Virus record (IMG/VR): IMGVR_UViG_3300035670_000062
Location: 1 to 64,000 of that record
Strand: one strand, 5' to 3'
Source of the DNA: a virus
Length of the DNA stretch: 64,000 nucleotides
In this document: in pieces, positions 30,141 to 45,888 of the stretch
How the letters are laid out: each line of letters opens with the position of its first letter
How positions within the stretch are numbered: position 1 is the stretch's first letter
Notes under the pieces: model-generated
What the model was told of the DNA's origin: nothing
The model's input: only the letters and a program-made list of their open reading frames with translations
Databases searched by the model: none
Translations under genes and position numbers: made by a program

Positions 30141-30147
30141 GATATAT

Positions 30148-30218: not shown

Positions 30219-30228
30219 CTAAAAATAA

Positions 30229-30314
30229 GCATCTATGGCGGAATTGGTAGACGCGCGGGACTTAAAATCCCGTCCTCAGAAATGGGGGTGTAGGTTCGAT
30301 TCCTACTTGATGCA
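30229..30314 (+). tRNA. tRNA-Leu(TAA)
   Basis: 86 nt with the long variable arm of class II tRNAs; anticodon loop CTTAAAA. GCATC/GATGC acceptor base. No encoded CCA. Confidence 0.9.
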
Positions 30315-30323
30315 CTTAAATAA

Positions 30324-30394
30324 TGCCGAATCGTCTAATGGCAGGACATTAGGTTTTGGTCCTAAGTGTGGAGGTTCGAATCCTTCTTCGGCAA
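30324..30394 (+). tRNA. tRNA-Gln(TTG)
   Basis: TGCCGAA/TTCGGCA acceptor; anticodon loop TTTTGGT within a TTAGG/CCTAA stem. 71 nt. Confidence 0.9.
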
Positions 30395-30402
30395 CATAAA
30401 AT

Positions 30403-30474
30403 GCTCCGTTCGACAAGTGGTTAAGTCATTGCCCTTTCACGGCAAAGTCACGGGTTCGAATCCCGTACGGAGTA
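30403..30474 (+). tRNA. tRNA-Glu(TTC)
   Basis: GCTCCGT/ACGGAGT acceptor (one G-U), anticodon stem TTGCC/GGCAA with loop CTTTCAC, canonical T arm. 72 nt. Confidence 0.9.
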
Positions 30475-30506
30475 CTAAATATTAAATTAAAATAAATAAA
30501 TCGGTT

Positions 30507-31433
30507 ATGAAAAACAAATCATTGGCTACAAAAGGGTTATCAATTTCTCAAGCACAATCAATTTCTAATCTTTGTTTTCAAAGAGCAAGAGAAATAGCTG
30601 CGGAATTATCTAAAGTAAATAATAGTTCTAAAACTATTTTTATTGATGGTTTAGAATTTACTAAACAACAACCTAATCCAATACCTGAAAATGTAATTAG
30701 TTTGCTTGAATTAAAAGCTAAATTACATGCAACTCAAGCATTTCTAATGGAAAATATTAAAGCTAAGGATCAATTAATTAAATCTATTAAATTTGAAGAG
30801 CTAGATTTATCTGAATTTTCATCATTGAATCCTAGACCCGTTATGGAAACATATTCAGAAAAATTACCTGAATTAGTAGATGAAATTTTGGGATGGGGTC
30901 AGTTATCTGAAACAGAGTATAATGAATATTTAGAGGCTGAGGCTTATGCTTCTCATATAGGTCAATTTATCCATAAAGATGGTAAATTAGATATTTTAAG
31001 AAATGAACTTTCTAGCATGGATTCATTAGAATTTATGGAGATAGAAACAGGCAAAAAGACTCCAGTTAGAGTAAGTTCACATCATACTCCTGAGCAGCTT
31101 TATAATATCCATGAACAATTGGCTACGTTGCATAGAAAATATGAGCAAAAAGTTAATTATTTTAAGGCTAAAGTTAAGAACCTAGTCACAATGGAAAATG
31201 CTAGGATTTCTAAAGAAAAACAAATTATATCTTCTAGGATTGAGTCTAAAAATAAAGAATTAAAAGAAAAATATGAATCAGAAATGAATGAGTATTCTAA
31301 TAAAATTAGCAATGAAATATTTAAATTTGAAGAAGCTAAATATGATAGAATCAAAGAAGCATCAGAACTTAAAATTAATGTTGATAGTAGGTTTCAAGAT
31401 GTTGTAGATATGTTTTTAAATAAAATTGAATAA
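30507..31433 (+). CDS. Coiled-coil hypothetical protein
   Basis: 308 residues, almost entirely helical. Residues about 200-295 are Lys/Glu rich with coiled-coil periodicity (KQIISSRIESKNKELKEKYESEM). No enzymatic motif. Preceded by CGGTT ATG and followed by a strong terminator, so it closes the transcription unit that begins upstream of the first tRNA cluster. Structural or scaffolding role possible; unknown. Confidence 0.6.
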   Translation: MKNKSLATKGLSISQAQSISNLCFQRAREIAAELSKVNNSSKTIFIDGLEFTKQQPNPIPENVISLLELKAKLHATQAFLMENIKAKDQLIKSIKFEELDLSEFSSLNPRPVMETYSEKLPELVDEILGWGQLSETEYNEYLEAEAYASHIGQFIHKDGKLDILRNELSSMDSLEFMEIETGKKTPVRVSSHHTPEQLYNIHEQLATLHRKYEQKVNYFKAKVKNLVTMENARISKEKQIISSRIESKNKELKEKYESEMNEYSNKISNEIFKFEEAKYDRIKEASELKINVDSRFQDVVDMFLNKIE

Positions 31434-31445
31434 TATTGTGGTGGT

Positions 31446-31486
31446 AATTTAGGGAGTAGACATAAGTTGATCTCCCTAAATTTTTA
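31446..31486 (+). terminator. Strong intrinsic terminator
   Basis: Perfect 11-bp stem AATTTAGGGAG/CTCCCTAAATT with a 15-nt loop, followed by a T tract (TTTTTATA). Confidence 0.8.
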
Positions 31487-31524
31487 TATAAAGGAATAAA
31501 GATACATGTAAATTAATATTGACT

Positions 31525-31545
31525 TATGCATTAAGATGCATATAC
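31525..31545 (+). repeat. ATGCAT hairpin
   Basis: ATGCAT-TAAG-ATGCAT inverted repeat in the gap between the terminator and the structured RNA candidate. Confidence 0.4.
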
Positions 31546-31585
31546 ATATAATTATTTGTAAAATAATTAAAACAAAATTATATCG

Positions 31586-31736
31586 CTCCTTTTACAATAA
31601 AAATAATCTGAGATAGAACTCATCCAATATTCAGGTTACTGAAATTCATAGAGAAAGTATAAAAACTTTACCACTAGACAGATAATTGAATATTAAAAGA
31701 GACTTAGCATTTGACATTGCCTTTATGTAAAAGGAG
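31586..31736 (+). ncRNA. Candidate structured RNA, 151 nt
   Basis: The ends CTCCTTTTACA (31586-31596) and TGTAAAAGGAG (31726-31736) are perfectly complementary over 11 bp. Inside, AATATTCA (31626-31633) pairs with TGAATATT (31687-31694), and AAAGT/ACTTT makes a small hairpin within that. The element lies between a terminator and a promoter with no gene of its own, so it looks like an independent RNA or processed leader. No known class recognised. Confidence 0.5.
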
Positions 31737-31810
31737 GTCTTTGAATTTGTTGTTGAATTTGATTTAGTCTATTTTCTTTATTTCTTTATAACACCATTTA
31801 TTGTATTTTG

Positions 31811-31843
31811 TTTGGCTCCCCAGGGAGCCATTCGTATCTTTAG
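31811..31843 (+). promoter_or_regulatory. Class I promoter with spacer dyad
   Basis: TTTGG at 31811, TATCTTTA at 31835; GGCTCC-CC-AGGGAGCC dyad in the spacer. Gene start taken at 31873, after the promoter. Confidence 0.8.
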
Positions 31844-31872
31844 TATATAAGAAACAAATAAAAATAAAAGTT

Positions 31873-32778
31873 ATGACAACACAAACAAAAATGAAAATTG
31901 GTTACGATTCAATTACTAAATTGTATACATTCTTAAATGGGGATTTTTTATATAATGGTAAATCAACAAAAGATCCATTAAGAGCTAATACTTACAATAC
32001 CTTAATTACAACCTCAGAAAAACCAATTACAATTGAAAAATCAACTTCTATAAAGAAATTAATTGGATATCAAAATGAAAAAGATAATACTATTATATCT
32101 CAAGATGAATATGATAATTTATTAGAAGGGATTAATAAAGAGTGGAATGATGATGAAAATGAATGGGAATTTGGAAATATAGAAGACGAGATAAAATATA
32201 ATATTATATGTAAATCTTATACTCCCAAATATGAATATGAAACTCAATTAACTCAAATCGAATTTGAAATAATTGAATATCCAGCAAGTCAATATGATGA
32301 AATTATTCCATTATATTCATTAGATGCTAAAAATATTTTTGAAACTAAATGTACTTTTACTCCAAATCTATTTAAAACTTTTAGAGAAATATGTGAAAGG
32401 GAATATGGAATAGAAGCCAAAAATATAGAAAATGCAACTCATTCAGGAATTAGATATATAAAAATTAATAATGAATATATTCAAGGAATGGATGATTTTA
32501 ATATGAGATATAATAAATCTATTATAGATTCATATGATGGATGTATTGAAAGAATGGATACTCTTAAAAAAGATTTAAATAATATATTATCATTTCATTT
32601 TGCTAAAAAATCTCAAAAAATTCTAGATACTACTACATTAGGAGGATTTTTAACCGAATTAGATTCTATTAGAAATACCATTTATAAGTTAGAAATCAAA
32701 ACTAAAAGTTATGGAGATTACCAAAATGCATGTGGAAAAATCAATAAATTAATTAATCTAATCATTGAAAAAAATTAA
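31873..32778 (+). CDS. Hypothetical protein
   Basis: 301 residues, start at ATG 31873 after the AAAAGTT leader; an upstream TTG would run through the promoter. Mixed alpha/beta first half, helical second half (RMDTLKKDLNNILSFHFAKKSQKILDTT). No family recognised. Confidence 0.6.
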   Translation: MTTQTKMKIGYDSITKLYTFLNGDFLYNGKSTKDPLRANTYNTLITTSEKPITIEKSTSIKKLIGYQNEKDNTIISQDEYDNLLEGINKEWNDDENEWEFGNIEDEIKYNIICKSYTPKYEYETQLTQIEFEIIEYPASQYDEIIPLYSLDAKNIFETKCTFTPNLFKTFREICEREYGIEAKNIENATHSGIRYIKINNEYIQGMDDFNMRYNKSIIDSYDGCIERMDTLKKDLNNILSFHFAKKSQKILDTTTLGGFLTELDSIRNTIYKLEIKTKSYGDYQNACGKINKLINLIIEKN

Positions 32779-32779
32779 A

Positions 32780-32959
32780 ATGAATAATAAATTTTATAAA
32801 TCTAAAATAATAGGCAAATCATACTCCGCAAATGAATATATTAACCATGGTTATGGTGGTATAATGTATGGTAAAAAAGATTTACCACATAATGAATATC
32901 CTTATGAAATAATTTATGAAACACAGAAAAAATATATTAGGAGGCAGTACCTCAAATAA
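32780..32959 (+). CDS. Hypothetical small protein
   Basis: 59 residues, Tyr/Gly/Lys rich (YINHGYGGIMYGKKD). ATG two bases after the previous stop. A TTG start at 32765 is possible but would overlap. Unknown. Confidence 0.45.
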   Translation: MNNKFYKSKIIGKSYSANEYINHGYGGIMYGKKDLPHNEYPYEIIYETQKKYIRRQYLK

Positions 32960-33206
32960 ACCTACATCAACCATAGAATTAGTTAAAGTTCCTGATGAAG
33001 TTATTGTTGAAATACAAAGAGAAGAAATAGAGACCCTTAAAAAAGAAATAGATAAGTTAAAATATAAATCCGAAAATAAGATAATAACAGAACTTAAAGA
33101 TAAAAATAGAAGATTAAAATCTGAAAATAAGAAGTTAAAACTTCAATTAGATGTTTTAAATAATAAAATTAGGAAGTTTAATTCAAAAACCTTACCAAGA
33201 GGATAA
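32916..33206 (+). CDS. Coiled-coil protein
   Basis: 96 residues. From about residue 30 it is a continuous charged heptad coil (EEIETLKKEIDKLKYKSENK). Overlaps the previous gene by 44 bp in another frame. No enzymatic motif. Confidence 0.5.
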   Translation: MKHRKNILGGSTSNKPTSTIELVKVPDEVIVEIQREEIETLKKEIDKLKYKSENKIITELKDKNRRLKSENKKLKLQLDVLNNKIRKFNSKTLPRG

Positions 33207-33225
33207 TAATTTCTATTTGATTTTG

Positions 33226-33258
33226 TTTGGCTCCCCAGGGAGCCATTCGTATCTTTAG
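33226..33258 (+). promoter_or_regulatory. Class I promoter with spacer dyad
   Basis: TTTGG at 33226, TATCTTTA at 33250; the whole element repeats that at 31811 base for base through the dyad. Confidence 0.8.
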
Positions 33259-33281
33259 CGTATAAGAAACAAATAAAAGTT

Positions 33282-33686
33282 ATGTTATACGAATTGATTG
33301 TAAAAAGTAAAATTAATACTTATAGAAGTAGAATTACTTCTTCTAATACTATTAATATTTCTAATGGAATTTATAGAGAATTTAAATATCAATATTCTCA
33401 CCCCATTATACCACCTAGTTTAGTAAGTTTAAATGATAAAAAATTTATAGTACCTGAGTGGATAGAGGTTCATCCTAATACTGAATTAACAGATATTGAG
33501 TGGATAAAACCTATAAAAGAATATGTAAAACCTAATATTGAAATAATTGAATTTAAATCATCATCTAGTTCAGAAATTCATAGAGTTACTATTAAAGATG
33601 GGAAGATGAAATGTTCATGTATGGGATTCTTTAGGGGGAGAGGAAAGTGTAAACATACAAAAGAAGTTGAAGAAAGTAGAAAGTAA
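33282..33686 (+). CDS. SWIM zinc finger protein
   Basis: 134 residues. The C-terminus carries CSC, an eight-residue gap and CKH, the CxC...CxH form of a SWIM zinc finger, a DNA- or protein-binding element. The N-terminal part is beta-rich and not recognised. Own promoter; the DNA ligase gene follows behind another. Confidence 0.68.
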   Translation: MLYELIVKSKINTYRSRITSSNTINISNGIYREFKYQYSHPIIPPSLVSLNDKKFIVPEWIEVHPNTELTDIEWIKPIKEYVKPNIEIIEFKSSSSSEIHRVTIKDGKMKCSCMGFFRGRGKCKHTKEVEESRK

Positions 33687-33697
33687 GTAATGATTTG

Positions 33698-33730
33698 TTT
33701 GGCTCCACAAGGAGCCATTTGTATCTTTAG
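33698..33730 (+). promoter_or_regulatory. Class I promoter with spacer dyad
   Basis: TTTGG at 33698, TATCTTTA at 33722; GGCTCC-ACAA-GGAGCC dyad in the spacer. Drives the DNA ligase gene. Confidence 0.78.
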
Positions 33731-33773
33731 CGTATAAGAAATTAAAAATAATTGTAGAAGAAATAGAAAAAAT

Positions 33774-34847
33774 ATGAAAAAATTACCAACATTATATAAG
33801 TATAATACTAAAAATAAAGCTCAACAATGGGAAATTATTGTTGAGGGAAATTCATTTTACACCATAGAGGGATTGGTAGATGGTAAATTAACTATTTCTT
33901 CTTCTACATTATGTGAATCTAAAAATGTAGGTAAATCAAATGAAACTACTCCTCAAGAACAAGCTTTTTTTGAAGCTAAAGCTAAATGGCAAAAGAAACT
34001 AGATGAAGGTTATAATGAAGTTTTAACTACTCAAGTTAAATTTATTAAACCTATGTTAGCTCAAAAATATGAAGATTATAAGAAATTAATGTTTAAAAAT
34101 AGAACATTTATTCAACCTAAATTAGATGGTTTAAGATGTGTAAATGGGAGTAATAAACAAATGAGTAGAACAGGTAAAGAATATTTGTCTACTCCTCATT
34201 TAAATCAATCAACTACATTATTAGATGGTGAGTTATATTCCCATGAGTATAAACATGATTTTAATACTATAGTAAGTTTATGTCGTAAGACTAAACCTAC
34301 AAAAGAAGACATTGAGTTGAGTTCTAAAATAATTGAATATTGGATATATGATTTACCTAATGATGGTAGAGTATTTTCTAAAAGATTTGAAGATGTTTTA
34401 AAATTAGTTGAATTAAATCCCATGTTTAAAGTAGTACCTACGTATGAGGTTTTTAATGAAGAAGATATCGAAAAATATCACTTACAGTTTATCGAAGAAG
34501 GATATGAGGGAAGTATTATTAGAATGGATATGGGAGGTTACGAAAATAAAAGAAGTAAACAATTATTGAAAAAGAAAGATTGGATGGATGAAGAGTTTAC
34601 AATATTAGATATAGAATCAGGTAAGGGACAGTTGAGTGAAATTGCTGCTAGACTTATACTTCAACTACCTAATGGTGAAACTTTTAATAGTGCATTAAAT
34701 TGTAATCATGAAGAAATGAGTAGAATTTTTGTTAATAAAGAAAGTATAATAGGTAGACAAGCTACTGTTAAGTTTTTTGATTACACTCCAGATGGAAAAC
34801 CTAGATTTCCAAAAGTTGTAGTTATTGATAGATGGAGTTTTGAATAA
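33774..34847 (+). CDS. ATP-dependent DNA ligase
   Basis: 357 residues. An N-terminal WGR-like region (LYKYNTKNKAQQWEI...KNVGKSNETTPQEQA) is typical of phage ligases of this type. Motif I is FIQPKLDGLRCV with the adenylated Lys116; LDGELYSH (motif III), EGYEGSIIRM (motif IV) and LLKKKDW (motif V) follow, with a C-terminal OB fold. It seals nicks in duplex DNA at Okazaki junctions and repairs. Confidence 0.92.
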   Translation: MKKLPTLYKYNTKNKAQQWEIIVEGNSFYTIEGLVDGKLTISSSTLCESKNVGKSNETTPQEQAFFEAKAKWQKKLDEGYNEVLTTQVKFIKPMLAQKYEDYKKLMFKNRTFIQPKLDGLRCVNGSNKQMSRTGKEYLSTPHLNQSTTLLDGELYSHEYKHDFNTIVSLCRKTKPTKEDIELSSKIIEYWIYDLPNDGRVFSKRFEDVLKLVELNPMFKVVPTYEVFNEEDIEKYHLQFIEEGYEGSIIRMDMGGYENKRSKQLLKKKDWMDEEFTILDIESGKGQLSEIAARLILQLPNGETFNSALNCNHEEMSRIFVNKESIIGRQATVKFFDYTPDGKPRFPKVVVIDRWSFE

Positions 34848-34944
34848 TATTAAACAAGCAAAAAACTAATCAAATACCAAGTTTCATTACCCTTAATAGG
34901 ATGTGTTTTAAAGGTATTTTATAAATTAATTATATTATTATATT

Positions 34945-35268
34945 ATGAAAAAAGTTATTATAATGTGTTTATTTCCTATAACTATGTGGAGTCAACAATC
35001 TACATTGAACTATAAAACACCCATTAAATTCAACCTAAATACAAACAATGTAACTTATTCAAGTTATTCTTATTCACCTATAGGTCCTGGTTTGATGTTA
35101 GGTGGTGCTATTTTTACTACAGCAGCATTATTAACTGTACCTAATTATAATGTAAGGGGAGTTCAACAATATTCTCCTTATGTAAAAACAACACCTAGAT
35201 TTACAGCTATGATGTTGGGAATTGGTTGTTTCAGTATTGGGACTGTTTTAACAATTGGGGGAAGATGA
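34945..35268 (+). CDS. Hypothetical secreted or membrane protein
   Basis: 107 residues. A short signal-like N-terminus (MKKVIIMCLFPITMWSQQ) and two later hydrophobic stretches (GLMLGGAIFTTAALL, MMLGIGCFSIGTVL). Resembles small envelope proteins of Bacteroidota; no family recognised. Confidence 0.5.
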   Translation: MKKVIIMCLFPITMWSQQSTLNYKTPIKFNLNTNNVTYSSYSYSPIGPGLMLGGAIFTTAALLTVPNYNVRGVQQYSPYVKTTPRFTAMMLGIGCFSIGTVLTIGGR

Positions 35269-35582
35269 AACTTATTTATAAAATAATATCAGATCACCCT
35301 GAGGTGAAAGATCATCCAGATGTTGTAAAATTAATAGATTATATTGATAATCTTGAGGAGAGTAAAATTAAGAAGGAACAAGATTTAAAATTTAATAAGG
35401 AATTATTATATCTTGAATTACTCAGAGAAATTTATAAAGATATATTATTTCAAATCGAACAAGATGAATTATCAATAAGATTTAAAGAAACAAATAGAGT
35501 TGATTTTAAAGAATGTTTAATTTATTTAAAGAAATATTTAGATAAATTTCAAGAGGAAAATAAAGTAAATTTAAATAGATAA
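35265..35582 (+). CDS. Hypothetical helical protein
   Basis: 105 residues, charged and helical. Start at ATG 35265, which overlaps the previous stop (ATGA). Unknown role. Confidence 0.5.
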   Translation: MKLIYKIISDHPEVKDHPDVVKLIDYIDNLEESKIKKEQDLKFNKELLYLELLREIYKDILFQIEQDELSIRFKETNRVDFKECLIYLKKYLDKFQEENKVNLNR

Positions 35583-35601
35583 AAAAACTCCCACGAAATC
35601 A

Positions 35602-35634
35602 TTTGGTTACCTGAAAAATGGTTCGTATATTTAC
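35602..35634 (+). promoter_or_regulatory. Class I promoter before tRNA array
   Basis: TTTGG at 35602, TATATTTA at 35626, 24 nt apart. Candidate promoter for the small frame at 35689; a terminator at 35835 separates it from the tRNA array. Confidence 0.65.
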
Positions 35635-35688
35635 AGTATAAGAAAGAAAAGATCGACTTAAAAAAGAAAACACATATTTATAATAAAA

Positions 35689-35808
35689 ATGAAAAATTGT
35701 AGCCTAAATATTAACCTTACGAATACATGGAGTCGCCCGACTAATCATGATGGGGTCTATTCATTTAGAGCGAAATCATCAGACAAAATAAAACCACCCG
35801 GTTTATAA
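35689..35808 (+). CDS. Possible 39-residue protein
   Basis: ATG to TAA reading MKNCSLNINLTNTWSRPTN and ending PPGL, between a promoter and a terminator. GC-richer than neighbours. It may be a real leader peptide or chance. Confidence 0.35.
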   Translation: MKNCSLNINLTNTWSRPTNHDGVYSFRAKSSDKIKPPGL

Positions 35809-35834
35809 ATAGAATTATATATAATAATTATATC

Positions 35835-35869
35835 AACCCGGGTTTACAAAGTTAAGCTCGGGTTTTTTT
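35835..35869 (+). terminator. Intrinsic terminator
   Basis: AACCCG/CGGGTT stem with a 18-nt loop, then seven T residues, ending seven bases before the first gene of the large tRNA array. Confidence 0.6.
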
Positions 35870-35875
35870 GTTTTA

Positions 35876-35949
35876 AGGCTTTTTAGTTTAATTGGTAAAA
35901 TACGATACTTGTAATATTGAGAAAATGGTTCGAATCCATTAATGGCCTC
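35876..35949 (+). tRNA. tRNA-Thr(TGT)
   Basis: Anticodon arm CGATA-CTTGTAA-TATTG; TTCGAAT T loop; acceptor AGGCTTT/ATGGCCT has one mismatch and one G-U. Confidence 0.75.
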
Positions 35950-35986
35950 TTAAAATTGTTCTTTGACATATTGGAAATTAAAAAAT

Positions 35987-36069
35987 GGAAGTGATCCGGC
36001 TGGATGAGGAGCTGTTCTTGAAAAGCAGTAATGCTTATGGTATTGTGAGTTCGAGTCTCACCGCTTCCG
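35987..36069 (+). tRNA. tRNA-Ser(TGA)
   Basis: GGAAGTG/CGCTTCC acceptor, anticodon loop CTTGAAA, long variable arm, G at the discriminator position. 83 nt. Confidence 0.88.
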
Positions 36070-36075
36070 CAATAA

Positions 36076-36151
36076 CGAGTAGTAGAGGAGTCAGGTTTAT
36101 CTCGCTTGGTTTGGGACCAAGAGCACGCAGGTTCGGATCCTGCCTACTCGA
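36076..36151 (+). tRNA. tRNA-Pro(TGG)
   Basis: CGAGTAG/CTACTCG acceptor; anticodon arm CTTGG-TTTGGGA-CCAAG; T loop TTCGGAT. Confidence 0.9.
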
Positions 36152-36193
36152 CTAAAAATAAAATCATATAATTATGAAAAGTGACAAACAAAC

Positions 36194-36267
36194 GCTCTCG
36201 TAACTCAGTTGGATAGAGTACTAAGCTTTTAACTTAGGAGTCAATGGTTCAAATCCATTCGGGAGCA
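36194..36267 (+). tRNA. tRNA-Lys(TTT)
   Basis: GCTCTCG/CGGGAGC acceptor; anticodon arm CTAAG-CTTTTAA-CTTAG. 74 nt. Confidence 0.92.
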
Positions 36268-36274
36268 CAAAAAT

Positions 36275-36349
36275 GGTCTATTGGTGAAGTGGCTATCATC
36301 TCTGCCTGTCACGCAGAAGTAGACGGATCGTAACCGTCATGGACCGCCA
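36275..36349 (+). tRNA. tRNA-Asp(GTC)
   Basis: GGTCTAT/ATGGACC acceptor, anticodon arm TCTGC-CTGTCAC-GCAGA, encoded GCCA end. The T loop is ATCGTAA, lacking the usual T54. Confidence 0.88.
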
Positions 36350-36353
36350 AAAT

Positions 36354-36429
36354 ATATCCTTAGCTCAGTTGGAAGAGTAACATGTTTACATCATGAAGGT
36401 CCTAGGTTCAAGTCCTAGAGGATATACCA
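36354..36429 (+). tRNA. tRNA-Val(TAC)
   Basis: ATATCCT/AGGATAT acceptor, anticodon loop TTTACAT, TTCAAGT T loop and encoded ACCA end. Confidence 0.88.
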
Positions 36430-36439
36430 TCACAAGTAG

Positions 36440-36485
36440 AGGACATTGGCCGTGTAAAGGTGCCACTACCAAGAAAGATGTCCAA
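36440..36485 (+). other. Hairpin between tRNA genes
   Basis: GGACAT...ATGTCC with TTGG/CCAA inside encloses about 43 nt. It is too short for a tRNA and lacks a recognisable anticodon or T arm; possibly a tRNA remnant or processing element. Confidence 0.35.
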
Positions 36486-36489
36486 ATTT

Positions 36490-36570
36490 GGGAGATTATA
36501 CCGTAGAGGTAGCGGGGCAGCCTGTAAAGTTGTTACGAAAGTTCGGGTGGTTCGACTCCATCATCTCCCA
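36490..36570 (+). tRNA. tRNA-Tyr(GTA)
   Basis: GGGAGAT/ATCTCCC acceptor; anticodon loop CTGTAAA in a wobble-rich stem; long variable region as expected for bacterial Tyr. 81 nt. Confidence 0.88.
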
Positions 36571-36577
36571 CTTCTAA

Positions 36578-36691
36578 GGGTAAAACGCTTCCTGAACCGA
36601 TGTTGGGAGGTTATTGAAGAGTGGTTAAAGGCCATAATATATCTTTGTCGGGGATATATAGTTTTGTAAAAGCTTCAATTTAGTTTTACCC
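36578..36691 (+). ncRNA. Candidate structured RNA in tRNA array, 114 nt
   Basis: GGGTAAAAC (36578-36586) and GTTTTACCC (36683-36691) are perfectly complementary over 9 bp. Inside are TTGAAG/CTTCAA and ATATATC/GGATATAT arms, so it folds as a multi-arm RNA of tRNA-like size. I find no T loop or acceptor-anticodon layout, so it is not an ordinary tRNA. T4 has stable RNAs C and D in its tRNA cluster; this may be a counterpart. Confidence 0.45.
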
Positions 36692-36701
36692 CCGGTACTT
36701 T

Positions 36702-36773
36702 GGCTCTATGGTGAAATGGTTATCACTGCGGACTGTTAATCCGTCATTCCAAGTTCGAGTCTTGGTGGAGCCG
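36702..36773 (+). tRNA. tRNA-Asn(GTT)
   Basis: GGCTCTA/TGGAGCC acceptor; anticodon arm GCGGA-CTGTTAA-TCCGT; G discriminator. 72 nt. Confidence 0.92.
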
Positions 36774-36782
36774 CAATAAAAC

Positions 36783-36859
36783 AGACACATATACCCTCCG
36801 CCTGATACGCGGTAGAAAGGTTAATTGGTTGCATGTAGGTTCAAGTCCTACTGTGTCTA
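36783..36859 (+). tRNA. tRNA-Ile(GAT)-like, atypical, D arm missing or displaced
   Basis: Acceptor AGACACA/TGTGTCT (7 bp) and T arm GTAGG-TTCAAGT-CCTAC are perfect. The anticodon arm CCGC-CTGATAC-GCGG has a canonical loop (T33, GAT, A37), but only eight bases separate it from the acceptor, leaving no room for a D arm. A 20-nt stretch with D-arm-like AATTGGTTGC follows instead of a short variable loop. It may be non-functional or an unusual shape. Confidence 0.5.
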
Positions 36860-36864
36860 CATTT

Positions 36865-36947
36865 GGAAAATAAAATAGAGAGGATCTATAACCGCCTGCT
36901 AAGCGAGTTGTACCATCAGGTATGTGTTTCGAGTACACTGTTTTCCG
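36865..36947 (+). tRNA. tRNA-Ser(GCT)
   Basis: GGAAAAT/GTTTTCC acceptor, D stem TAGA/TCTA, anticodon loop CTGCTAA, variable arm TACC-ATCA-GGTA, G discriminator. 83 nt. Confidence 0.82.
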
Positions 36948-36949
36948 CT

Positions 36950-37024
36950 GTGTTCATAGTGTTAAGGGTTAGCACGTTTGGTTGTGGTTCAAAAAGTATG
37001 GGTTCAAATCCCATTGAACACCCC
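36950..37024 (+). tRNA. tRNA-His(GTG)
   Basis: G at the -1 position opposite C73, the His identity pair; anticodon loop TTGTGGT; encoded CCA end. Confidence 0.88.
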
Positions 37025-37028
37025 AATT

Positions 37029-37100
37029 GCGGATTAGGTTATGGTAACCAAGAGGCCTCCAAAACCTCAGGACAAGGTTCGATTCCTTGAGTCTGCGCCA
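37029..37100 (+). tRNA. tRNA-Trp(CCA)
   Basis: GCGGATT/AGTCTGC acceptor with two G-U pairs, short D loop (GGTT-ATGGT-AACC), anticodon loop CTCCAAA, G discriminator and encoded CCA. Confidence 0.85.
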
Positions 37101-37105
37101 TGTAA

Positions 37106-37178
37106 GGGAGTATAGCAAAGATGGTTTATGCGCTGGACTGAAAATCCAGAGATACAGGATCGTTACCTGTTGCTCCCA
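37106..37178 (+). tRNA. tRNA-Phe(GAA)
   Basis: GGGAGTA/TGCTCCC acceptor; anticodon arm CTGGA-CTGAAAA-TCCAG; T loop ATCGTTA lacks T54, as in the Asp gene. Confidence 0.88.
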
Positions 37179-37190
37179 CAAAAATAAAAT

Positions 37191-37263
37191 GGGTCTGTGT
37201 CCGAGTGGTTACAGGTGACTTCCTGCAAAGTTGTTTACATAGGTTCGAATCCTATAAGACCCT
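37191..37263 (+). tRNA. tRNA-Cys(GCA)
   Basis: GGGTCT/AGACCC acceptor, anticodon loop CTGCAAA, T73 discriminator as expected for Cys. The anticodon stem is weak, with two T-T oppositions. Confidence 0.78.
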
Positions 37264-37270
37264 CTAAAAT

Positions 37271-37344
37271 GCCTATATGGCGGAATTGGTAGACGCGCTT
37301 GATTTAGGATCAAGATTTTACAGGTTCGAGTCCTGTTATGGGTA
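37271..37344 (+). tRNA. tRNA-Leu(TAG) with short variable loop
   Basis: Anticodon arm CTTGA-TTTAGGA-TCAAG. The D arm resembles that of the Leu(TAA) gene (GGCGGAATTGGTAGACGCGC), but the variable region is only about five bases, where bacterial Leu tRNAs have a long arm. Acceptor pairs with two wobbles. Confidence 0.82.
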
Positions 37345-37349
37345 CAAAA

Positions 37350-37422
37350 GTATTCTTAGTTCAATTGGATAGAACCTCTAACTACGGATTAGAGAATGTA
37401 TGTTCGAGTCATACAGAATACT
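37350..37422 (+). tRNA. tRNA-Arg(ACG)
   Basis: GTATTCT/AGAATAC acceptor; anticodon arm TCTAA-CTACGGA-TTAGA. Needs A34-to-inosine editing by host TadA. Confidence 0.9.
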
Positions 37423-37427
37423 CAAAT

Positions 37428-37499
37428 GTCTCTATAGTTCAATGGATAGAATTTTTCTCTTCTAAAGAAAAGATGCTGGTTCGAATCCAGCTAGGGATA
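37428..37499 (+). tRNA. tRNA-Arg(TCT)
   Basis: GTCTCTA/TAGGGAT acceptor with wobbles; anticodon arm TTTCT-CTTCTAA-AGAAA. Reads AGA, a codon very common in this phage. Confidence 0.88.
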
Positions 37500-37505
37500 C
37501 TAAAA

Positions 37506-37578
37506 GCGGGTATCGTATAATGGTTAATTACACTAGCCTTCCAAGCCTGTGATGTTGGTTCGATTCCAACTACCCGCT
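37506..37578 (+). tRNA. tRNA-Gly(TCC)
   Basis: Perfect GCGGGTA/TACCCGC acceptor; anticodon loop CTTCCAA; T discriminator. Anticodon stem has two mismatches. Confidence 0.85.
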
Positions 37579-37596
37579 CATATATTTATTTTAAAT

Positions 37597-37856: not shown

Positions 37857-37889
37857 TTTGGCTCCTCAGGGAGCCATTCGTATCTTTAT
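37857..37889 (+). promoter_or_regulatory. Class I promoter with spacer dyad
   Basis: TTTGG at 37857, TATCTTTA at 37881; GGCTCC-TC-AGGGAGCC dyad. Reads into 37919. Confidence 0.8.
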
Positions 37890-38736: not shown

Positions 38737-39267
38737 ATGAAAAATTTAATAAGAACTTTTAAAAATGGAGTAAAAAATTTAATAAAATGGTTTCCTATTA
38801 TTTGGAAAGATAGAGATTGGGACCAACATTATATTTATGAAGTTTTAAAATTTAAACTCCAAAAACAGGCAAAATATATTTCTCAAAGAGGAAACCATCT
38901 TTCAGCTCAAAAAGATGCTCGTAATATGAATATATGTACTTCCCTTATTCAAAAAATCCAAGATGGTTATTACGAGTTAGAATATATGAATTATTGTATA
39001 GATAAGACTTGGTTTGAACCTATTAAAGATTCATATTCATGGGAAAGAGAAATATTAGATGAAAATTATGATTCATATTTCAAATTATATCCCTTAATCT
39101 ATAAAAAAGTTATTAATGATGAAATAAAATATTATGATATTAATAATGTTCATGGCAGCGAACGAAAAGAAAGGATTGCTATGAGTATAGCTCAATATAA
39201 TCAAAAAAGAGCCCAAGACTTATTATTTAAAATAATGAATGAACAGATTAATAGTTGGTGGGATTAA
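38737..39267 (+). CDS. Hypothetical protein
   Basis: 176 residues, Trp/Tyr-rich (WFPIIWKDRDWDQHYIYE), ends NSWWD. Helical; no membrane segment of full length. Two-base gap from the previous gene. Unknown. Confidence 0.5.
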   Translation: MKNLIRTFKNGVKNLIKWFPIIWKDRDWDQHYIYEVLKFKLQKQAKYISQRGNHLSAQKDARNMNICTSLIQKIQDGYYELEYMNYCIDKTWFEPIKDSYSWEREILDENYDSYFKLYPLIYKKVINDEIKYYDINNVHGSERKERIAMSIAQYNQKRAQDLLFKIMNEQINSWWD

Positions 39268-39315
39268 TGTAGAATAACAAATAACTTTATATTTATATAT
39301 AAACAATATACTATT

Positions 39316-42300
39316 ATGAAACTAACAAAACTTTTAAGTCTATTTATAACGTTTATTGCTGTATTTATTAATATTAATACATACGCACAATACAACACAG
39401 GATTCGAAGGGTCAGATGAAACTAAAACATCCTATGCTTCTGGTGATGTTATTTTAAGTGGTATTCAATGGAATATGACTGAGGCATTGATTGGTACTCT
39501 TTCTAATGATAAAAAGATTGGTAGTCGATCCATGCGTATGAGGAGAAATGGTACTATTCCAGGAACAGCAACTATGTTGAATGATAAACCTGATGGGATT
39601 GGTACTATATCCTTTAAATATGCTAGATTTGGTACTGAAACAGGTCAGCCAACGTTATTTGTGGAATATAGTATAGATGGGGGTATTTCATGGACTCAGG
39701 CAGGATCATCCATAACATCTTTCCCAAATAGTTTAACAAATTGGTCAGCAACTATTAATCAGGGTGGGAATGTTAGGATTAGATTTAGAACAAATACTGG
39801 TGGTACCAGTCAAAGAAGGTTTAATATAGATGACATTCAATTAACCAACTACATACCAGCATGCTATCAACCAACTGCTTTTGGAACAGCATCAGCTCCA
39901 ACAACTCCAACTCCCCTTACAATAAGCACGTGTACATACGCAGGAGAATACAACACTATAAACTCTATAGTCTCAGGTCAAACTTATCAATTCGAATCTA
40001 GTATTGGAAGTGATTGGCTTGTTTTAACTGATGCTTCAAATAATCTTATTACTTCAGGCACCTCTCCTATAAATTGGACAGCAAACTTTAGTGGTACAGT
40101 TAGATTACATATTAGTACTAACTCTAATTGCGGGACTCAAAATATATGCAGAACAACCAAAGTAACTTGTCTTTCTTGCATTCCACCTCCTTGCATCCAA
40201 CCAACACCATTTATATCAATTAATGCCCCAACAACTCAGTCTCAACTAACAATAAGCACGTGTACTTATGCAGGGGAGTATAACACTATAAATTCTGTAG
40301 TTTCTGGGAGTACTTATCTATTTGAGTCTAGCATTAATACAGATTGGCTTGTTTTAACTGATGCTCAAAATAACCTACTCGCATCAGGTACCTCATCAAT
40401 TAACTGGACAGCAACCTTTAGTGGTACAGTTAGATTGCATGTTAGTGTGGATAATAACTGTGGCATTCAGAATGTATGTAGAACAACTAGTGTAATATGT
40501 ACTTCATGCATTCCAGTTCCTTGTACTCAACCTACACCATATGTGTCAATAAACGCACCTACAATTCCAACTCCCCAAATCATCACCAACTGTACATACG
40601 CTGGAGAATACAATACTATAAATTCTGTAGTTTCTGGGAGTACTTATCAATTCGAATCTAGCGTTGGAACTGACTGGCTTGTTTTAACCGATGCTTCAAA
40701 TAATGTAATCGTTTCTGGAAGTTCACCTATAAATTGGACGGCAAATTTTAATGGCACAGTCCGACTTCATGTTAGTACCAACTCTAATTGTGGAACTCAA
40801 AATGTATGTAGAACAACTACTATAACATGTAACTCTTGTCAATTTCCTCCTATTATAAGCTCTTTTACTCCAACTAATACTTGCTTTAACAGCAACGAAC
40901 AAATTATCATAACAGGACAAAACTTTACAAATGTTATAAGTGTAAGTTTAGGAAACAATAATGTTCAATCATTTGTTGTAAATAGCTCAACTCAGATAAC
41001 CATTTCAATTGGTTCAAGTATGTCTGGTTTTATTACTGTAGTTACACCTGGAGGTAGTACAACTAGTTCGAGTATTTTTACAGTAAATGCATCTCCCTCT
41101 CAGTCAGTTTCGGTTATTAATGTTGGATGTTTTGGTGATTCTAGTGGAAATATTAACCTAACTCCATCAGGTGGAAGTGCTCCATATTCCTTTAGTTGGA
41201 ACAATGGCGTCACTACTGAAGACTTAACAAACGTACCCGCTGGGATATATTCAGTAATTATCACCGATCAAAATAATTGTACCACTTCAACGTCAGTAAC
41301 AATAACCCAACCAACATCAACTTTAAACGATTCTATTGTTAAAACTAATGTTCTTATTTATGGTAACTCAACAGGAGCAATAGACTTAACAATGTCGGGT
41401 GGTACAGCTCCATACACATACTTATGGTCTAACGGAGCGACCACTGAAGACCTTACTGGTCTTGCCGCAGGAACCTACACTGTAACAGTTACTGATGCTA
41501 ATGGTTGTCAGCTTATAACAAGTGTAATAATTGAAGAACCTATTGATTGTACTATTGGTGATATTGAAGGGGCTCAAATATTATGTGGTTACTCTCAAGT
41601 CAGTTACACAATAGAAATACCTTCATGTGTTGTAAACTACTATTGGAATATGCCACAAGGAATGACGATAATTGATGAGGACACTGACGTAGCTGGATAT
41701 ATTACTGTGGATGTTTCAATTGATGAGTTAGATTTTGTATCGGGTGATATAATTTTTACTGCTGTTTATAGTGGAGGTACAAGTTCAGATACACTAGCTG
41801 TTAGTCAAATTCCATTTACACCAGAATTTATAACTACGGCTACTTGTGGTATACCTAATACTACTGTCACTTTTGAAGTAGAAGAAATTGAAGGTGTTGA
41901 AAGTTATGTTTGGACTCAACCAAATTTATCTAGTTTATTGTTTGGGCAAAATACAGACTCAGTTCGTGTAAAATTTGGTTCATTGTTTAATAGTGGAACA
42001 CTTTCGGTTGTTGCTACCAACCTTTGCGGTTCGAGTCCTGCTGCTGAATTCTTTATTTTAGCACCTCCCGCTACTGCAAATAATATTCAAGGACCAACTA
42101 CAATATGTTCAGTGGAGCCTTCACAACTTTATTATGTGGATTCGGTTGCCAATGCTTCCTACTACATTTGGGGTATGCCAAACGGAGCAACAATTATTTC
42201 AAATCCAGCTACTAATGATTCGGTTAATGTAATGTTCCAAAACTTTAGTTCGGGTGTAATTTCTGTGAAATCAGCAAATACCTGCGGAAGTTCCTCAATG

Positions 42301-43689
42301 AAATACTTAACTGTAACGGCTCCTTCTATTGCTGCACCAACGGGAATATCTGGTCCACAATCAGTTTGTTCGTATGTAGGAACAGGTCAGATTGTCAATT
42401 ACACAACCCCAATGGTGTCTGGAGTGACTAATTATATTTGGTCTATGCCTTCAGGAGCAACTATAAGTAATGGTTTGGGAACCAATACAATTGGTGTTCA
42501 GTTTGCTGCTGGATTTACAGGTGGTAACATAGGAGTGTCATTAAGTAATGGCTGTAGTTTAAGTCAACAATCAACATTACAATTATTGGGTGTGTCTGCA
42601 GGAGGTGCACCTCAATATATAGATCTTAATGGACAGTCTAGTGTTTGTTCGTTCATCGGTACTGGCAGCACTGTTTATAGTGTTACTCCTCCAATAGGAG
42701 CAAACAGTTATGTTTGGTCGGTACCTAATGATGCAACTATCATCAGTGGTTCAGGTACATCAAGTATTACTGTTTCGTTTGCTTCAAGTTTTGTAACCGG
42801 TACGATATCTGTTACCGTAATAACGAATTGTGGGACAACCTATCAACAATCTAAAACAGTGACAAAAATCCCTTCTGATGCTGGAGCGATAACTGGACCA
42901 AATTGTATTTTACTTGGATCAACTTATACCTATTCAATAGCAGCAGTTTCTGGAGCCACATCTTATCACTGGACGGTACCTTCAAATGCCACTATTACTA
43001 GTGGACAATGGACTTCAAGTATTACTGTACAATACTCAAATTCGTTTTCTGGTGGGGATATGACAGTTACACCTATTAATAGTTGTGGTAATGGAACATC
43101 CTCAACTATTACTATAGGTTTGGCAATAGTTGTACCGAGTCAAATTTTTGGTGCTACTTCGGTTTGTTTAGGTCAAACATTGACCTACTATGTTACACCT
43201 GTACCTACTGCCACATACTATATTTGGGCTGTTCCAGTTGGTATGGCTATAATTGGATATCAATATGGTGATAGTATCGTTGTGTCAGTAGATAATCAAT
43301 TTATTTCAGGTTTAATTTCTTGTAAATCTGTAAATGACTGTGGCAGTAGTCCAATGCGATACTCAAACACTATTTCAACCGGCAACTGTTCTACGGCTAT
43401 ATCAACATCACCTCAAGTTATTACTAAAATAAGTATAAATGAAAATAATGAAGTTGGATTATATCCAAATCCAACAAATGATAAAACATTTATTAAACTA
43501 ATAAACAATGAAGAAAAGTTAATAAAAATTATAATTTATGATAATAGTGGTAGATGTATATTTAATCAAGTTATAGATATAGATGGAGATTCAAACTTTA
43601 TAGATTTATCTATGTATAATTCTGGGGTTTATTTAGTTTTTATTATAACAAGTAATAGCAAGGATATATATAGAGTAATTAAAATTTAA
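39316..43689 (+). CDS. Large secreted surface protein with T9SS sorting domain
   Basis: 1457 residues. Signal peptide 1-24 (LLSLFITFIAVFININTYA). Domains: a jelly-roll-like region (25-178); three repeats of about 105 residues (about 183-505) sharing TYAGEYNTINS and DWLVLTDA; an IPT/TIG-like domain (about 513-590); two SprB-type repeats ending AGIYSVIITD and AGTYTVTVTD; six or so PKD/Ig-like domains with YIW/NYIWSMP motifs; and a type A T9SS C-terminal domain (about 1388-1457, GLYPNPTNDKTFIKL, YNSGVYLVFI). This is the form of Bacteroidota adhesins exported by type IX secretion. Codons use more C and G than the rest, so host origin is likely. Confidence 0.88.
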   Translation: MKLTKLLSLFITFIAVFININTYAQYNTGFEGSDETKTSYASGDVILSGIQWNMTEALIGTLSNDKKIGSRSMRMRRNGTIPGTATMLNDKPDGIGTISFKYARFGTETGQPTLFVEYSIDGGISWTQAGSSITSFPNSLTNWSATINQGGNVRIRFRTNTGGTSQRRFNIDDIQLTNYIPACYQPTAFGTASAPTTPTPLTISTCTYAGEYNTINSIVSGQTYQFESSIGSDWLVLTDASNNLITSGTSPINWTANFSGTVRLHISTNSNCGTQNICRTTKVTCLSCIPPPCIQPTPFISINAPTTQSQLTISTCTYAGEYNTINSVVSGSTYLFESSINTDWLVLTDAQNNLLASGTSSINWTATFSGTVRLHVSVDNNCGIQNVCRTTSVICTSCIPVPCTQPTPYVSINAPTIPTPQIITNCTYAGEYNTINSVVSGSTYQFESSVGTDWLVLTDASNNVIVSGSSPINWTANFNGTVRLHVSTNSNCGTQNVCRTTTITCNSCQFPPIISSFTPTNTCFNSNEQIIITGQNFTNVISVSLGNNNVQSFVVNSSTQITISIGSSMSGFITVVTPGGSTTSSSIFTVNASPSQSVSVINVGCFGDSSGNINLTPSGGSAPYSFSWNNGVTTEDLTNVPAGIYSVIITDQNNCTTSTSVTITQPTSTLNDSIVKTNVLIYGNSTGAIDLTMSGGTAPYTYLWSNGATTEDLTGLAAGTYTVTVTDANGCQLITSVIIEEPIDCTIGDIEGAQILCGYSQVSYTIEIPSCVVNYYWNMPQGMTIIDEDTDVAGYITVDVSIDELDFVSGDIIFTAVYSGGTSSDTLAVSQIPFTPEFITTATCGIPNTTVTFEVEEIEGVESYVWTQPNLSSLLFGQNTDSVRVKFGSLFNSGTLSVVATNLCGSSPAAEFFILAPPATANNIQGPTTICSVEPSQLYYVDSVANASYYIWGMPNGATIISNPATNDSVNVMFQNFSSGVISVKSANTCGSSSMKYLTVTAPSIAAPTGISGPQSVCSYVGTGQIVNYTTPMVSGVTNYIWSMPSGATISNGLGTNTIGVQFAAGFTGGNIGVSLSNGCSLSQQSTLQLLGVSAGGAPQYIDLNGQSSVCSFIGTGSTVYSVTPPIGANSYVWSVPNDATIISGSGTSSITVSFASSFVTGTISVTVITNCGTTYQQSKTVTKIPSDAGAITGPNCILLGSTYTYSIAAVSGATSYHWTVPSNATITSGQWTSSITVQYSNSFSGGDMTVTPINSCGNGTSSTITIGLAIVVPSQIFGATSVCLGQTLTYYVTPVPTATYYIWAVPVGMAIIGYQYGDSIVVSVDNQFISGLISCKSVNDCGSSPMRYSNTISTGNCSTAISTSPQVITKISINENNEVGLYPNPTNDKTFIKLINNEEKLIKIIIYDNSGRCIFNQVIDIDGDSNFIDLSMYNSGVYLVFIITSNSKDIYRVIKI
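39870..40845 (+). repeat. Three tandem coding repeats of about 315-325 bp
   Basis: Three copies of the segment encoding TCTYAGEYNTINS through CRTT, one after another, with high nucleotide similarity (for example AATTCTGTAGTTTCTGGGAG in copies two and three). Prone to recombination and copy-number change. Confidence 0.75.
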
Positions 43690-43697
43690 TATTTATA
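43689..43697 (+). promoter_or_regulatory. TATTTATAT box before holin-like gene
   Basis: TATTTATAT right at the end of the surface protein gene and 15 bases before the ATG at 43712; late-box type. Confidence 0.4.
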
Positions 43698-43711
43698 TTA
43701 AAATAATTAGT

Positions 43712-43954
43712 ATGAAAAAATTTATAATGACTATGCTTTCTAATAATTCAGGAGTATCTTCAAAACGAGTAATTGCATTTATAGGGTTCTTATTTTTATC
43801 AATAAGTATGTTTATTACTGTCTTTAAAAAAGAAGCAACCCCATCTCAATCATTAGTAACAGCAGTTGAAACTATTATAATAGTAGCATTAGGTGGTTCT
43901 ACTGTTGAAAAATTTTCAAAACAAAACTCAAAAATCAATCCAGAAGACGAATGA
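43712..43954 (+). CDS. Holin-like membrane protein
   Basis: 80 residues with two transmembrane helices (about 20-38 and 49-64) and a polar, charged C-terminus. Overlaps the endolysin gene by four bases. Size, topology and position fit a class II holin that permeabilises the inner membrane. Confidence 0.65.
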   Translation: MKKFIMTMLSNNSGVSSKRVIAFIGFLFLSISMFITVFKKEATPSQSLVTAVETIIIVALGGSTVEKFSKQNSKINPEDE

Positions 43955-44826
43955 TACTACAAAAAGGAAGCAAAGGTAAATTAGTTATTAACCTACAAAA
44001 TTTTCTAAAAATAACCCCAGATGGTAATTTTGGGCCTATGACTGAAGTGGCAGTTAGAAATTGGCAATTAAAAAATAATATTAAAGTAACAGGAGTTGTT
44101 GATTCTGTAACTTGGGATTCAATGGGATTAGCATCTACAGATGAATCTGAAAGAAACAACCATCAGGAAAATATTATAATAAATAAAGATTTTCTTCCTA
44201 AAGGAGAATATATGAATGGACCAACTAAAAAAGAATGGTTATTTTTACATCATACTGCTGGGTGGAATGATCCTTATAAAGTAATAAAATCATGGGGTAG
44301 AGACAATAGAGGAGCTATTGCTACTGAATTTGTATTAGGTGGTCCTAGTATAACTAATAATGATAATAAGTTTGATGGTGAAATTGTTCAAGCGTTTCCT
44401 GAAGGAGGATATGGTTGGCATTTAGGGACAGGAAATAATGAAATGCATAGAAATTCTGTTGGTATTGAAGTGTGTAATTTTGGTTACATTAAAGATGGTA
44501 AAACATACACAGGTAATGTAGTAAATCCTAATCAAATTGTTGAGTTAAAACAACCATTTAGAAAATATAAACAATGGCATAAATATTCTGACAATCAGTT
44601 AAATGCTCTTAAAAATCTTATTCTATATATAGCCAACAGAGACAACATTGATGTTAGAAAAGGATTACCTGAGTTGATTAAAACTATGGGAGTAGATGCT
44701 TTTGATTTTGTTAATATAAAACATGTAGAAACTAATAAAGGTTTATGGAATCATACAAACGTGAGATCAGACAAATTTGACATGTTTCCTCAACAAGAAC
44801 TTATAGACATGTTATTAAGTTTATAA
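43951..44826 (+). CDS. Endolysin: N-acetylmuramoyl-L-alanine amidase
   Basis: 291 residues. N-terminal peptidoglycan-binding domain (2-55, LQKGSKGKLVINLQNFL, DGNFGPMTEVAVRNWQ), then a type 2 amidase: LFLHHTAGW with the first zinc His pair, YGWHLGTG, NSVGIEVCNFG and NIKHVETNKG with a late His. It cuts the lactyl-amide bond between muramic acid and the stem peptide. No signal peptide, so release depends on the holin-like protein upstream. Confidence 0.88.
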   Translation: MILQKGSKGKLVINLQNFLKITPDGNFGPMTEVAVRNWQLKNNIKVTGVVDSVTWDSMGLASTDESERNNHQENIIINKDFLPKGEYMNGPTKKEWLFLHHTAGWNDPYKVIKSWGRDNRGAIATEFVLGGPSITNNDNKFDGEIVQAFPEGGYGWHLGTGNNEMHRNSVGIEVCNFGYIKDGKTYTGNVVNPNQIVELKQPFRKYKQWHKYSDNQLNALKNLILYIANRDNIDVRKGLPELIKTMGVDAFDFVNIKHVETNKGLWNHTNVRSDKFDMFPQQELIDMLLSL

Positions 44827-44828: not shown

Positions 44829-45836
44829 ATGAAAAAATATATATTCCCTTTTATAATTGCTCTATCTGCAATTAGTGTTAGTGCGTCTGCTGCTTTCTAT
44901 AGTGTATATGGTTTATTTAAATTATTTAGTGGTGCAGGTATTGCTATTATTATTATGGCTTCTGCACTTGAAATATCAAAATTAGTAGTAGCTTCATTGT
45001 TACATCAGTATTGGAAGGAGTTAAATAAGTTACTTAAAATATATTTGTCTGTAGCTTTAGGGATATTAATGCTTATTACTAGTTTAGGTATATATGGATT
45101 TTTAACTCATTCATATCAGCAAACATATAATGCATCTATGATGGTTGAAAATCAATTAGAATTAATTGAAAATAAACTCGATTATTTTAATAATAATATA
45201 GATAATATAAACTCACAAATATCCCTTAAATCTCAACGAATTATCACTTTAGTTGAACTTAGAACTCAACAAGAAACTAGATTAGATTCATTATATAATA
45301 AAAATAAATACAAACAAGCTAAAGCAACTGAAGGGGTTATATTTGAAGCTAATAATGATATTAAGTTTTTGGAAAAGGAAATGGATACTTTAAATATAAA
45401 TTTAAATAAATGGAATGATTCAATTAATATTACTAAATATAAAATATTAGAATTAACCAACAATAATCAAGCTTCAGCTGAGTTAGGTCCCTTAAAATAT
45501 TTATCAAACCTATTAAATAAACCAATGGATCAGATTATAAATTGGTATATGCTTTTAATCATATTTGTATTTGATCCTTTAGCTATAGCTTTAGTATTAG
45601 TTGCTAATTTTACTTTTTCAAAGATTAAACCTAAAAAATTATATTATACTAAAGATTCACCTGTTATATATGAAGAAAAGAAGGAGGAAATAATCTCCCA
45701 ACAAAGTGATTTACCTGAAGATGTAATTGATATTGATGATAGAATTAGTAACATATTGAATAGTGATTTAAGTGAAAAAAAGAAAAATAAAATAATTAAT
45801 CAAATAAAAAATGATGATTTAACTATAAATTATTAA
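44829..45836 (+). CDS. Multi-pass membrane protein with periplasmic-type coil
   Basis: 335 residues. Transmembrane helices near 5-30, 33-58 and 72-95, a long coiled coil (about 110-215), another helix (about 232-258) and an acidic tail. Two bases after the endolysin gene, so it is part of the lysis block. Could act in lysis timing or envelope change; no family recognised. Confidence 0.55.
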   Translation: MKKYIFPFIIALSAISVSASAAFYSVYGLFKLFSGAGIAIIIMASALEISKLVVASLLHQYWKELNKLLKIYLSVALGILMLITSLGIYGFLTHSYQQTYNASMMVENQLELIENKLDYFNNNIDNINSQISLKSQRIITLVELRTQQETRLDSLYNKNKYKQAKATEGVIFEANNDIKFLEKEMDTLNINLNKWNDSINITKYKILELTNNNQASAELGPLKYLSNLLNKPMDQIINWYMLLIIFVFDPLAIALVLVANFTFSKIKPKKLYYTKDSPVIYEEKKEEIISQQSDLPEDVIDIDDRISNILNSDLSEKKKNKIINQIKNDDLTINY

Positions 45837-45855: not shown

Positions 45856-45888
45856 TTTGGCTCCACAGGGAGCCATTCGTATCTTTAT
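45856..45888 (+). promoter_or_regulatory. Class I promoter with spacer dyad
   Basis: TTTGG at 45856, TATCTTTA at 45880; GGCTCC-AC-AGGGAGCC dyad. Drives the DUF932 gene. Confidence 0.8.

Follow-up and report, generated by a model that had tools for sequence, protein, structure and literature searches.

Can a tailed phage display proteins on its host through the host's own secretion system? Such a route is not generally expected of these phages, and the question is raised by a gene at positions 39316-43689 of a 64,000-nucleotide stretch of viral DNA (positions 1 to 64,000 of the 113,098-bp IMG/VR record IMGVR_UViG_3300035670_000062; the whole stretch is referred to as the window). The gene, present as one copy in the record, encodes a protein of 1457 amino acids (aa) that starts with a predicted signal peptide and ends with a C-terminal domain (CTD) of the kind that directs cargo to the type IX secretion system (T9SS). 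Judged from its sequence, the product is almost certainly a T9SS type A cargo protein, and it is very probably exported during infection. Export through the T9SS is well supported by the presence of a signal peptide together with a CTD scoring above the curated cut-offs, and by the co-occurrence of these two elements in other phage proteins.

At the C-terminus, PF18962 (Por_Secre_tail) matched residues 1382-1451 with 43.5 bits against a curated cut-off of 27, and TIGR04183 matched residues 1382-1456 of 1457 with 44.6 bits against a cut-off of 23. The type A domain named in the original prediction, which had been made from the letters alone, is thereby borne out. The Pfam and NCBIfam models gave no match to the type B CTD (CHU_C/TIGR04131), leaving type A only. 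At the N-terminus, the signal peptide reads MKLTKLLSLFITFIAVFININTYA, followed by Q, on inspection and by a simple rule, and a lipobox Cys is absent at the cleavage site. The remaining features that had been predicted, namely signal peptide, triplicated domains, SprB and PKD repeats and a length of 1457 aa, were likewise confirmed, with coordinates and length exact. The protein is laid out as follows:

39316..43689, plus strand: T9SS type A cargo gene; ATG start, intact open reading frame (ORF) of 1457 aa with zero internal stops, Pfam and NCBIfam matches
39316..39387, plus strand: predicted Sec signal peptide, residues 1-24; by eye, a basic n-region, a hydrophobic core and cleavage between ...TYA and Q
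39385..39861, plus strand: N-terminal module, residues 24-182; 47% identity to Flavobacteriaceae protein L286 (residues 11-210)
39862..40179, plus strand: triplicated domain copy 1, residues 183-288; from self-alignment, modelled as a beta sandwich with a predicted local distance difference test score (pLDDT) mostly >90 in the domain
40192..40509, plus strand: triplicated domain copy 2, residues 293-398; from self-alignment, bacterial relatives L102-L105
40522..40839, plus strand: triplicated domain copy 3, residues 403-508; from self-alignment
41104..41550, plus strand: two SprB repeats, residues about 597-745; PF13573, 67.4 bits in 2 stretches, E 8e-19
41548..43365, plus strand: seven PKD_6 domains, residues about 745-1350; PF19408, 307 bits in 7 stretches, E 2e-93
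43459..43683, plus strand: T9SS type A sorting domain, residues 1382-1456; PF18962 and TIGR04183, YPNPT and GVY motifs

The N-terminal module (residues 24-182) gave a weak Pfam match to Reelin_subrepeat-B, below the cut-off, and AlphaFold yielded no reliable fold for it on its own (pLDDT 39). The three 106-aa repeats that follow (about residues 183-508) are mutually 72-76% identical in a self-alignment, and residues 182-510 are 54% identical to a Flavobacteriales metagenome-assembled genome. Searches with the patterns of the triplicated domain itself returned zero confirmed viral relatives and found relatives in four bacterial genomes. When its model was used in a fold search, many small beta sandwiches were retrieved (PPC/collagen-binding, GOLD, CUB); the single match at E<0.001 was the lysozyme inhibitor PliG, which we treat as weak with over half of the model at low confidence. 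A sequence search of the PDB gave one marginal match, to a phage decoration protein (E 0.068). A short linker region separates the triplicated domain from the SprB repeats, and no enzymatic or membrane-active domain was found in the protein by Pfam.

Do other phages combine the same two export elements? Among 72 complete phage ORFs with SprB repeats, 21 had both signal peptide and CTD, 50 had neither, one had the signal peptide only and none the CTD only (Fisher p 2.8e-17; 4e-5 when counted by 50%-identity clusters), with signal peptides called by a simple rule and CTDs by a purpose-built hidden Markov model that was checked on records found by PF18962. The proteins without either element, e.g. 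L217, L246 and L271 (among L204-L279), are virion-type in appearance; SprB repeats are common to probable virion proteins and secreted cargo.

The CTD alone is too short a query for a productive survey; 80 related loci were collected by anchoring on the endolysin encoded downstream of the cargo gene. PF18962 scored above its cut-off in 13 of the first 50 endolysin-locus records searched and in 1 of 30 others, which were mostly short. The endolysin-adjacent type A proteins form a family whose complete members measure 985-1096 aa and which has signal peptides and Cys-rich GCxDPxxxNY repeats; although beside the same endolysin, this family has a passenger unrelated to that of the window protein. 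At least 600 matches were listed in a search with the family, which is therefore common. Nine endolysin-locus relatives exceed 100 kb, of which four carry type A cargo and four others type B; several of the nine are near-identical by length and match, which puts the independent lineages with cargo at about 4/5. Cargo is also encoded on contigs with a gp20 portal, among them G020, G091, G114, G122 and G126. Two phages of 630-640 kb (LR756502.1 and LR745206.1; L005, L101) encode several T9SS CTD proteins each; one of these proteins, 1670 aa long, combines 13 SprB repeats with a type B CTD. The cultured Flavobacterium phage immuto encodes a cohesin and type A protein (immuto26A_15) with a signal peptide and a CTD above both cut-offs.

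In three cargo families, the ratio of nonsynonymous to synonymous substitution rates (dN/dS) was about 0.16-0.23; from this purifying selection (about 0.2) it follows that phages maintain these families. T9SS cargo looks like a common, little-studied phage strategy. The wider proposal is that T4-like and huge Bacteroidota phages routinely carry dedicated, selected genes for T9SS export, with exchangeable passengers on a shared plan from signal peptide to CTD and often beside lysis genes, as a general strategy of surface remodelling; here we see the chances as evenly balanced.

Several neighbourhoods in these phages contain further exported proteins. In immuto, a run of signal-peptide genes (10527-15868) lies directly after the ribonucleotide reductase genes and encodes a C-type lectin protein, the type A cargo protein with the cohesin domain and other exported products; one of the latter is CsgG-like in appearance without a Pfam match. 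A 166-kb viral contig has three consecutive T9SS type B genes (L222:3884-12613). In L211 (12867-15700), the giant cargo gene is followed by four extra signal-peptide genes, of which the final one encodes a type B T9SS CTD; L209 (12775-12937) is without these four, which points to gain or loss of an exported-protein cassette.

Is the gene a genuine part of a phage genome? The record carries a T4-like terminase and gp20 portal. Its nearest named relative is immuto (MW353175.1, L099), with a portal 60-65% identical, and an ORF-by-ORF comparison revealed blocks collinear with immuto throughout the record. Immuto infects Flavobacterium sp. LMO8, its partner in culture, and Flavobacterium is a genus that possesses the T9SS. 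The cargo gene has the following neighbours:

38737..39267, plus strand: upstream neighbour, immuto26A_37 homolog; 52% over 172 aa
43712..43954, plus strand: holin-like small membrane protein of 80 aa with two predicted transmembrane helices; from sequence, with a weak PHROG membrane-protein match
43951..44826, plus strand: endolysin (PG_binding_1 and Amidase_2) by domain matches; 56-63% relatives in 80 viral loci
44829..45836, plus strand: membrane/coiled-coil protein, immuto26A_86 homolog; 39% over 318 aa

The product of 43712-43954 is a putative holin. In the ORF-by-ORF comparison, no immuto counterpart was found for the cargo gene, the holin-like gene or the endolysin gene. Because matches to immuto flank these three genes while the genes themselves lack counterparts, their position indicates that they are an accessory block inside the phage backbone and not a chimera. 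The proposed placement of the cargo gene between phage genes and a lysis block holds, with flanks that match immuto and the holin-like and endolysin genes downstream, and at 39.3 and 43.7 kb, where a chimeric assembly had been considered, the sequence is collinear with immuto on both sides. A chimera or host contamination was rejected, with phage genes on both flanks and homologs in other phage contigs. No sprC/D/F companions were seen among the neighbours by Pfam, in the absence of a dedicated search. Twenty transfer RNA genes in two clusters (30053-37579) end just ahead of the cargo region.

Proximity to lysis genes recurs: 37 of 121 cargo ORFs (>=500 aa) lie within 4 kb of a relative of the endolysin, an immuto holin, the membrane protein at 44829 or the gene at 38737, two of them counted through the 38737 gene; the count is descriptive, as the loci are interrelated and some were selected through the endolysin.

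When would the protein be made? Just ahead of the structural genes of the window phage stands TATTTATAATAAA, with exact copies at ten starts beyond 48 kb; immuto has the motif as well. Variants one edit away precede both the cargo gene and the holin-like gene:

39290..39303, plus strand: late-type upstream motif at edit distance 1 from TATTTATAATAAA, a distance reached by about 1% of Markov upstream-like sequences
43690..43702, plus strand: late-type motif ahead of the holin-like gene, one edit from TATTTATAATAAA; about 1% chance

Since the cargo gene adjoins lysis genes and bears this one-edit motif, it is rather more probably than otherwise expressed late. The genes at 37919 and 45927 carry a different upstream signal, TTTGGCT..TTCGTATCTTTA, which is probably an early signal. 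It occurs at 37857-37888, 45856-45887 and elsewhere ahead of accessory genes, often with a GGCTCC/GGAGCC inverted repeat.

Where does the cargo gene come from? Capture from the host had been proposed from its codon use. The gene is indeed GC-richer than its surroundings (about 36% versus 26%), but the excess sits mostly at codon position 2 (0.50 versus 0.30 +/- 0.055 in other genes), and GC at codon position 3 (GC3) lies within the range of the phage (0.198 versus 0.141 +/- 0.034, with a maximum of 0.271 in other genes). Since the rise is concentrated at position 2 with GC3 in range, it reflects mainly amino-acid composition rather than codon choice, as expected of a protein rich in Ser, Thr and Gly. 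GC was likewise raised in 82 cargo genes of other viral contigs (mean +3.4 points, 99% positive), and the argument for host capture from codon use is not upheld.

Homologs of 1850 aa in four viral contigs (L203, L209, L210 and L211) are collinear with the window protein over residues ~597-1457 (~870 aa) at 33-35% identity, and share with it signal peptides, the order SprB-PKD_6-CTD and the repeat domain. They differ in having an N-terminal glycine-rich domain in place of the window's module and a single copy of the repeat domain, and in not lying beside the endolysin. One of them, L203, is a 203-kb contig with a T4-type portal, in which a homolog of 38737-39267 is located 2.6 kb from the cargo gene. 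The best single alignment of the PKD array reached 205-234 bits with phages versus 71-88 with the best bacterial loci found, while for the SprB repeats bacteria scored 165 versus 134 for phages, and relatives of module 24-182 were found in bacteria only; this comparison covered 400 Flavobacteriaceae genomes with two or three candidates per genome scored, and some matches in bacteria may have escaped it. The PKD array was also sought across the phylum, without a positive control and with nothing at E<=1e-20, and exact peptides revealed no close relatives in viral_contigs. We read the window gene as a probable mosaic, in which the stalk and CTD are resident in phages and other modules have been exchanged with bacteria; some exchange is indicated because the N-terminal module and the SprB repeats are closest to bacterial sequences.

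Taken together, the predicted course would be as follows. The 1457-aa protein would probably be made late in infection, as its position beside the lysis genes and its upstream motif suggest. The signal peptide would take it through Sec into the periplasm and the type A CTD to the host T9SS. As for known type A cargo, the CTD would then be removed, leaving the protein either attached to the infected cell or set free from it, as a long stalk of PKD and SprB repeats that carries binding-type beta domains at its N-terminal tip. On the cell it may coat or mask receptors, for which the gliding adhesins or surface glycans that flavobacterial phages use are plausible candidates, and so keep virions from being wasted on debris and on cells already doomed. 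Some flavobacterial phages require gliding-machinery genes, and two adhesins exported by the T9SS, SprB and RemA, are possible receptors (PMC13288928, PMC7345892); in phage T5, Llp prevents adsorption from being wasted on infected cells and debris (PMC9586334). We hold the whole chain from T9SS export to receptor masking to be possible at somewhat less than even chance, and masking as the role of this protein is a tentative proposal of similar or slightly lower standing. Several points weigh against it. The host and its T9SS are deduced solely from the nearest named phage, the signal peptide was judged by eye and a simple rule, and the late motif is one edit off, with p 0.05 in an ungapped position weight matrix test at the cargo gene. 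Known superinfection-exclusion proteins are small and often early, unlike this giant and probably late product, and the cargo families differ in passenger and need not share one role.

Which other roles would fit? The main rival to masking is that display of the protein would cause the infected cell to adhere to surfaces, particles or neighbours, or would alter its gliding, so that the burst takes place where hosts are dense. Adhesins on bacterial surfaces typically have SprB repeats, PKD repeats and the repeat domain, the variable patch of L209, L210 and L211 is the SprB-to-PKD region, and the T9SS cargo gene of immuto adjoins an exported C-type lectin gene. Probably late timing would leave little time for a change of behaviour before lysis, however, and SprB itself has a type B and not a type A CTD; we consider an adhesive role unlikely, at about one chance in a few. 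The very large size and host-type CTD would also suit a protein that occupies the T9SS, displaces SprB and RemA, stops gliding and so removes phage receptors, the more so as the T9SS is coupled to gliding and gliding proteins are important in the entry of phages. For competition alone, signal peptide and CTD would suffice, whereas the passengers are kept by selection, and short CTD proteins are also present in related phages, which makes this improbable.

A role in lysis, in which the protein would be exported to weaken the surface layer or the outer membrane, is prompted by the adjoining holin-like and endolysin genes in the window and by lysis genes in related phages; we rate it as quite improbable, given the lack of a domain suited to it and the 84 of 121 surveyed cargo genes without a tested lysis relative within 4 kb. 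Equally slight is the chance that the gene is a recently acquired host gene without phage function, or host DNA misjoined to the contig. Its bacteria-like N-terminal module and SprB repeats and the missing immuto counterpart would agree with this already disfavoured view, but it is opposed by the phage genes on both flanks, the homologs in other phage contigs, purifying selection in the cargo families of other phages and codon use within range. Least probable of all is a tail component whose CTD mimics host cargo, e.g. to bind the T9SS as a receptor. Phage proteins of virion-type appearance do contain SprB repeats, but those have neither signal peptide nor CTD while the window protein has both, and a signal peptide would remove the protein from the compartment of virion assembly. 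The original prediction had also favoured cargo over a virion protein, and this part of it is supported.

How does the window protein compare with known systems? The SprB and RemA proteins of Flavobacterium are exported to the surface by the T9SS, and SprB repeats are common to them and the window protein. SprB greatly exceeds the window protein in size, carries a type B CTD and is located with sprC/D/F; the window protein is unlike it in its type A CTD, and no sprC/D/F-type operon was seen. Immuto26A_15 belongs to the same phage lineage and shares signal peptide and type A CTD, but is a 243-aa cohesin-domain protein in a different genome region, within the exported-gene run. Phage-encoded T9SS cargo as such is already known. 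In Cryophage, type A cargo presumed to leave through the host T9SS was called unique by its authors (Bellas et al. 2020, PMC7468147), whereas many phages have such genes here; the sorting domain is type A in both, but the Cryophage passengers are an endoglucanase, a GH39 and a PA14 protein, and that of the window is an SprB/PKD giant beside lysis genes. ORFs with T9SS sorting domains, one of them with BACON repeats as well, also occur in crAss-like phages (de Jonge et al. 2019, PMC6949934); these are another phage group, with the genes near head genes and with other repeat domains. T5 Llp offers a parallel in possible logic only, as a phage envelope product that prevents wasted adsorption (PMC9586334), and as a small, early, periplasmic lipoprotein has no sequence or pathway in common with the window protein. 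In the open-access literature, with subscription papers and preprints outside the scope, we found neither a description of giant phage cargo of the SprB/PKD type nor an account of how frequent it is in T4-like phages.

The proposed reading is open to direct test, as immuto, a phage in culture, encodes a T9SS cargo protein of its own. If it is true, infected Bacteroidota cells would present giant surface proteins chosen by the phage, perhaps shortly before lysis, and superinfection, receptor availability, adhesion and gliding would be affected.

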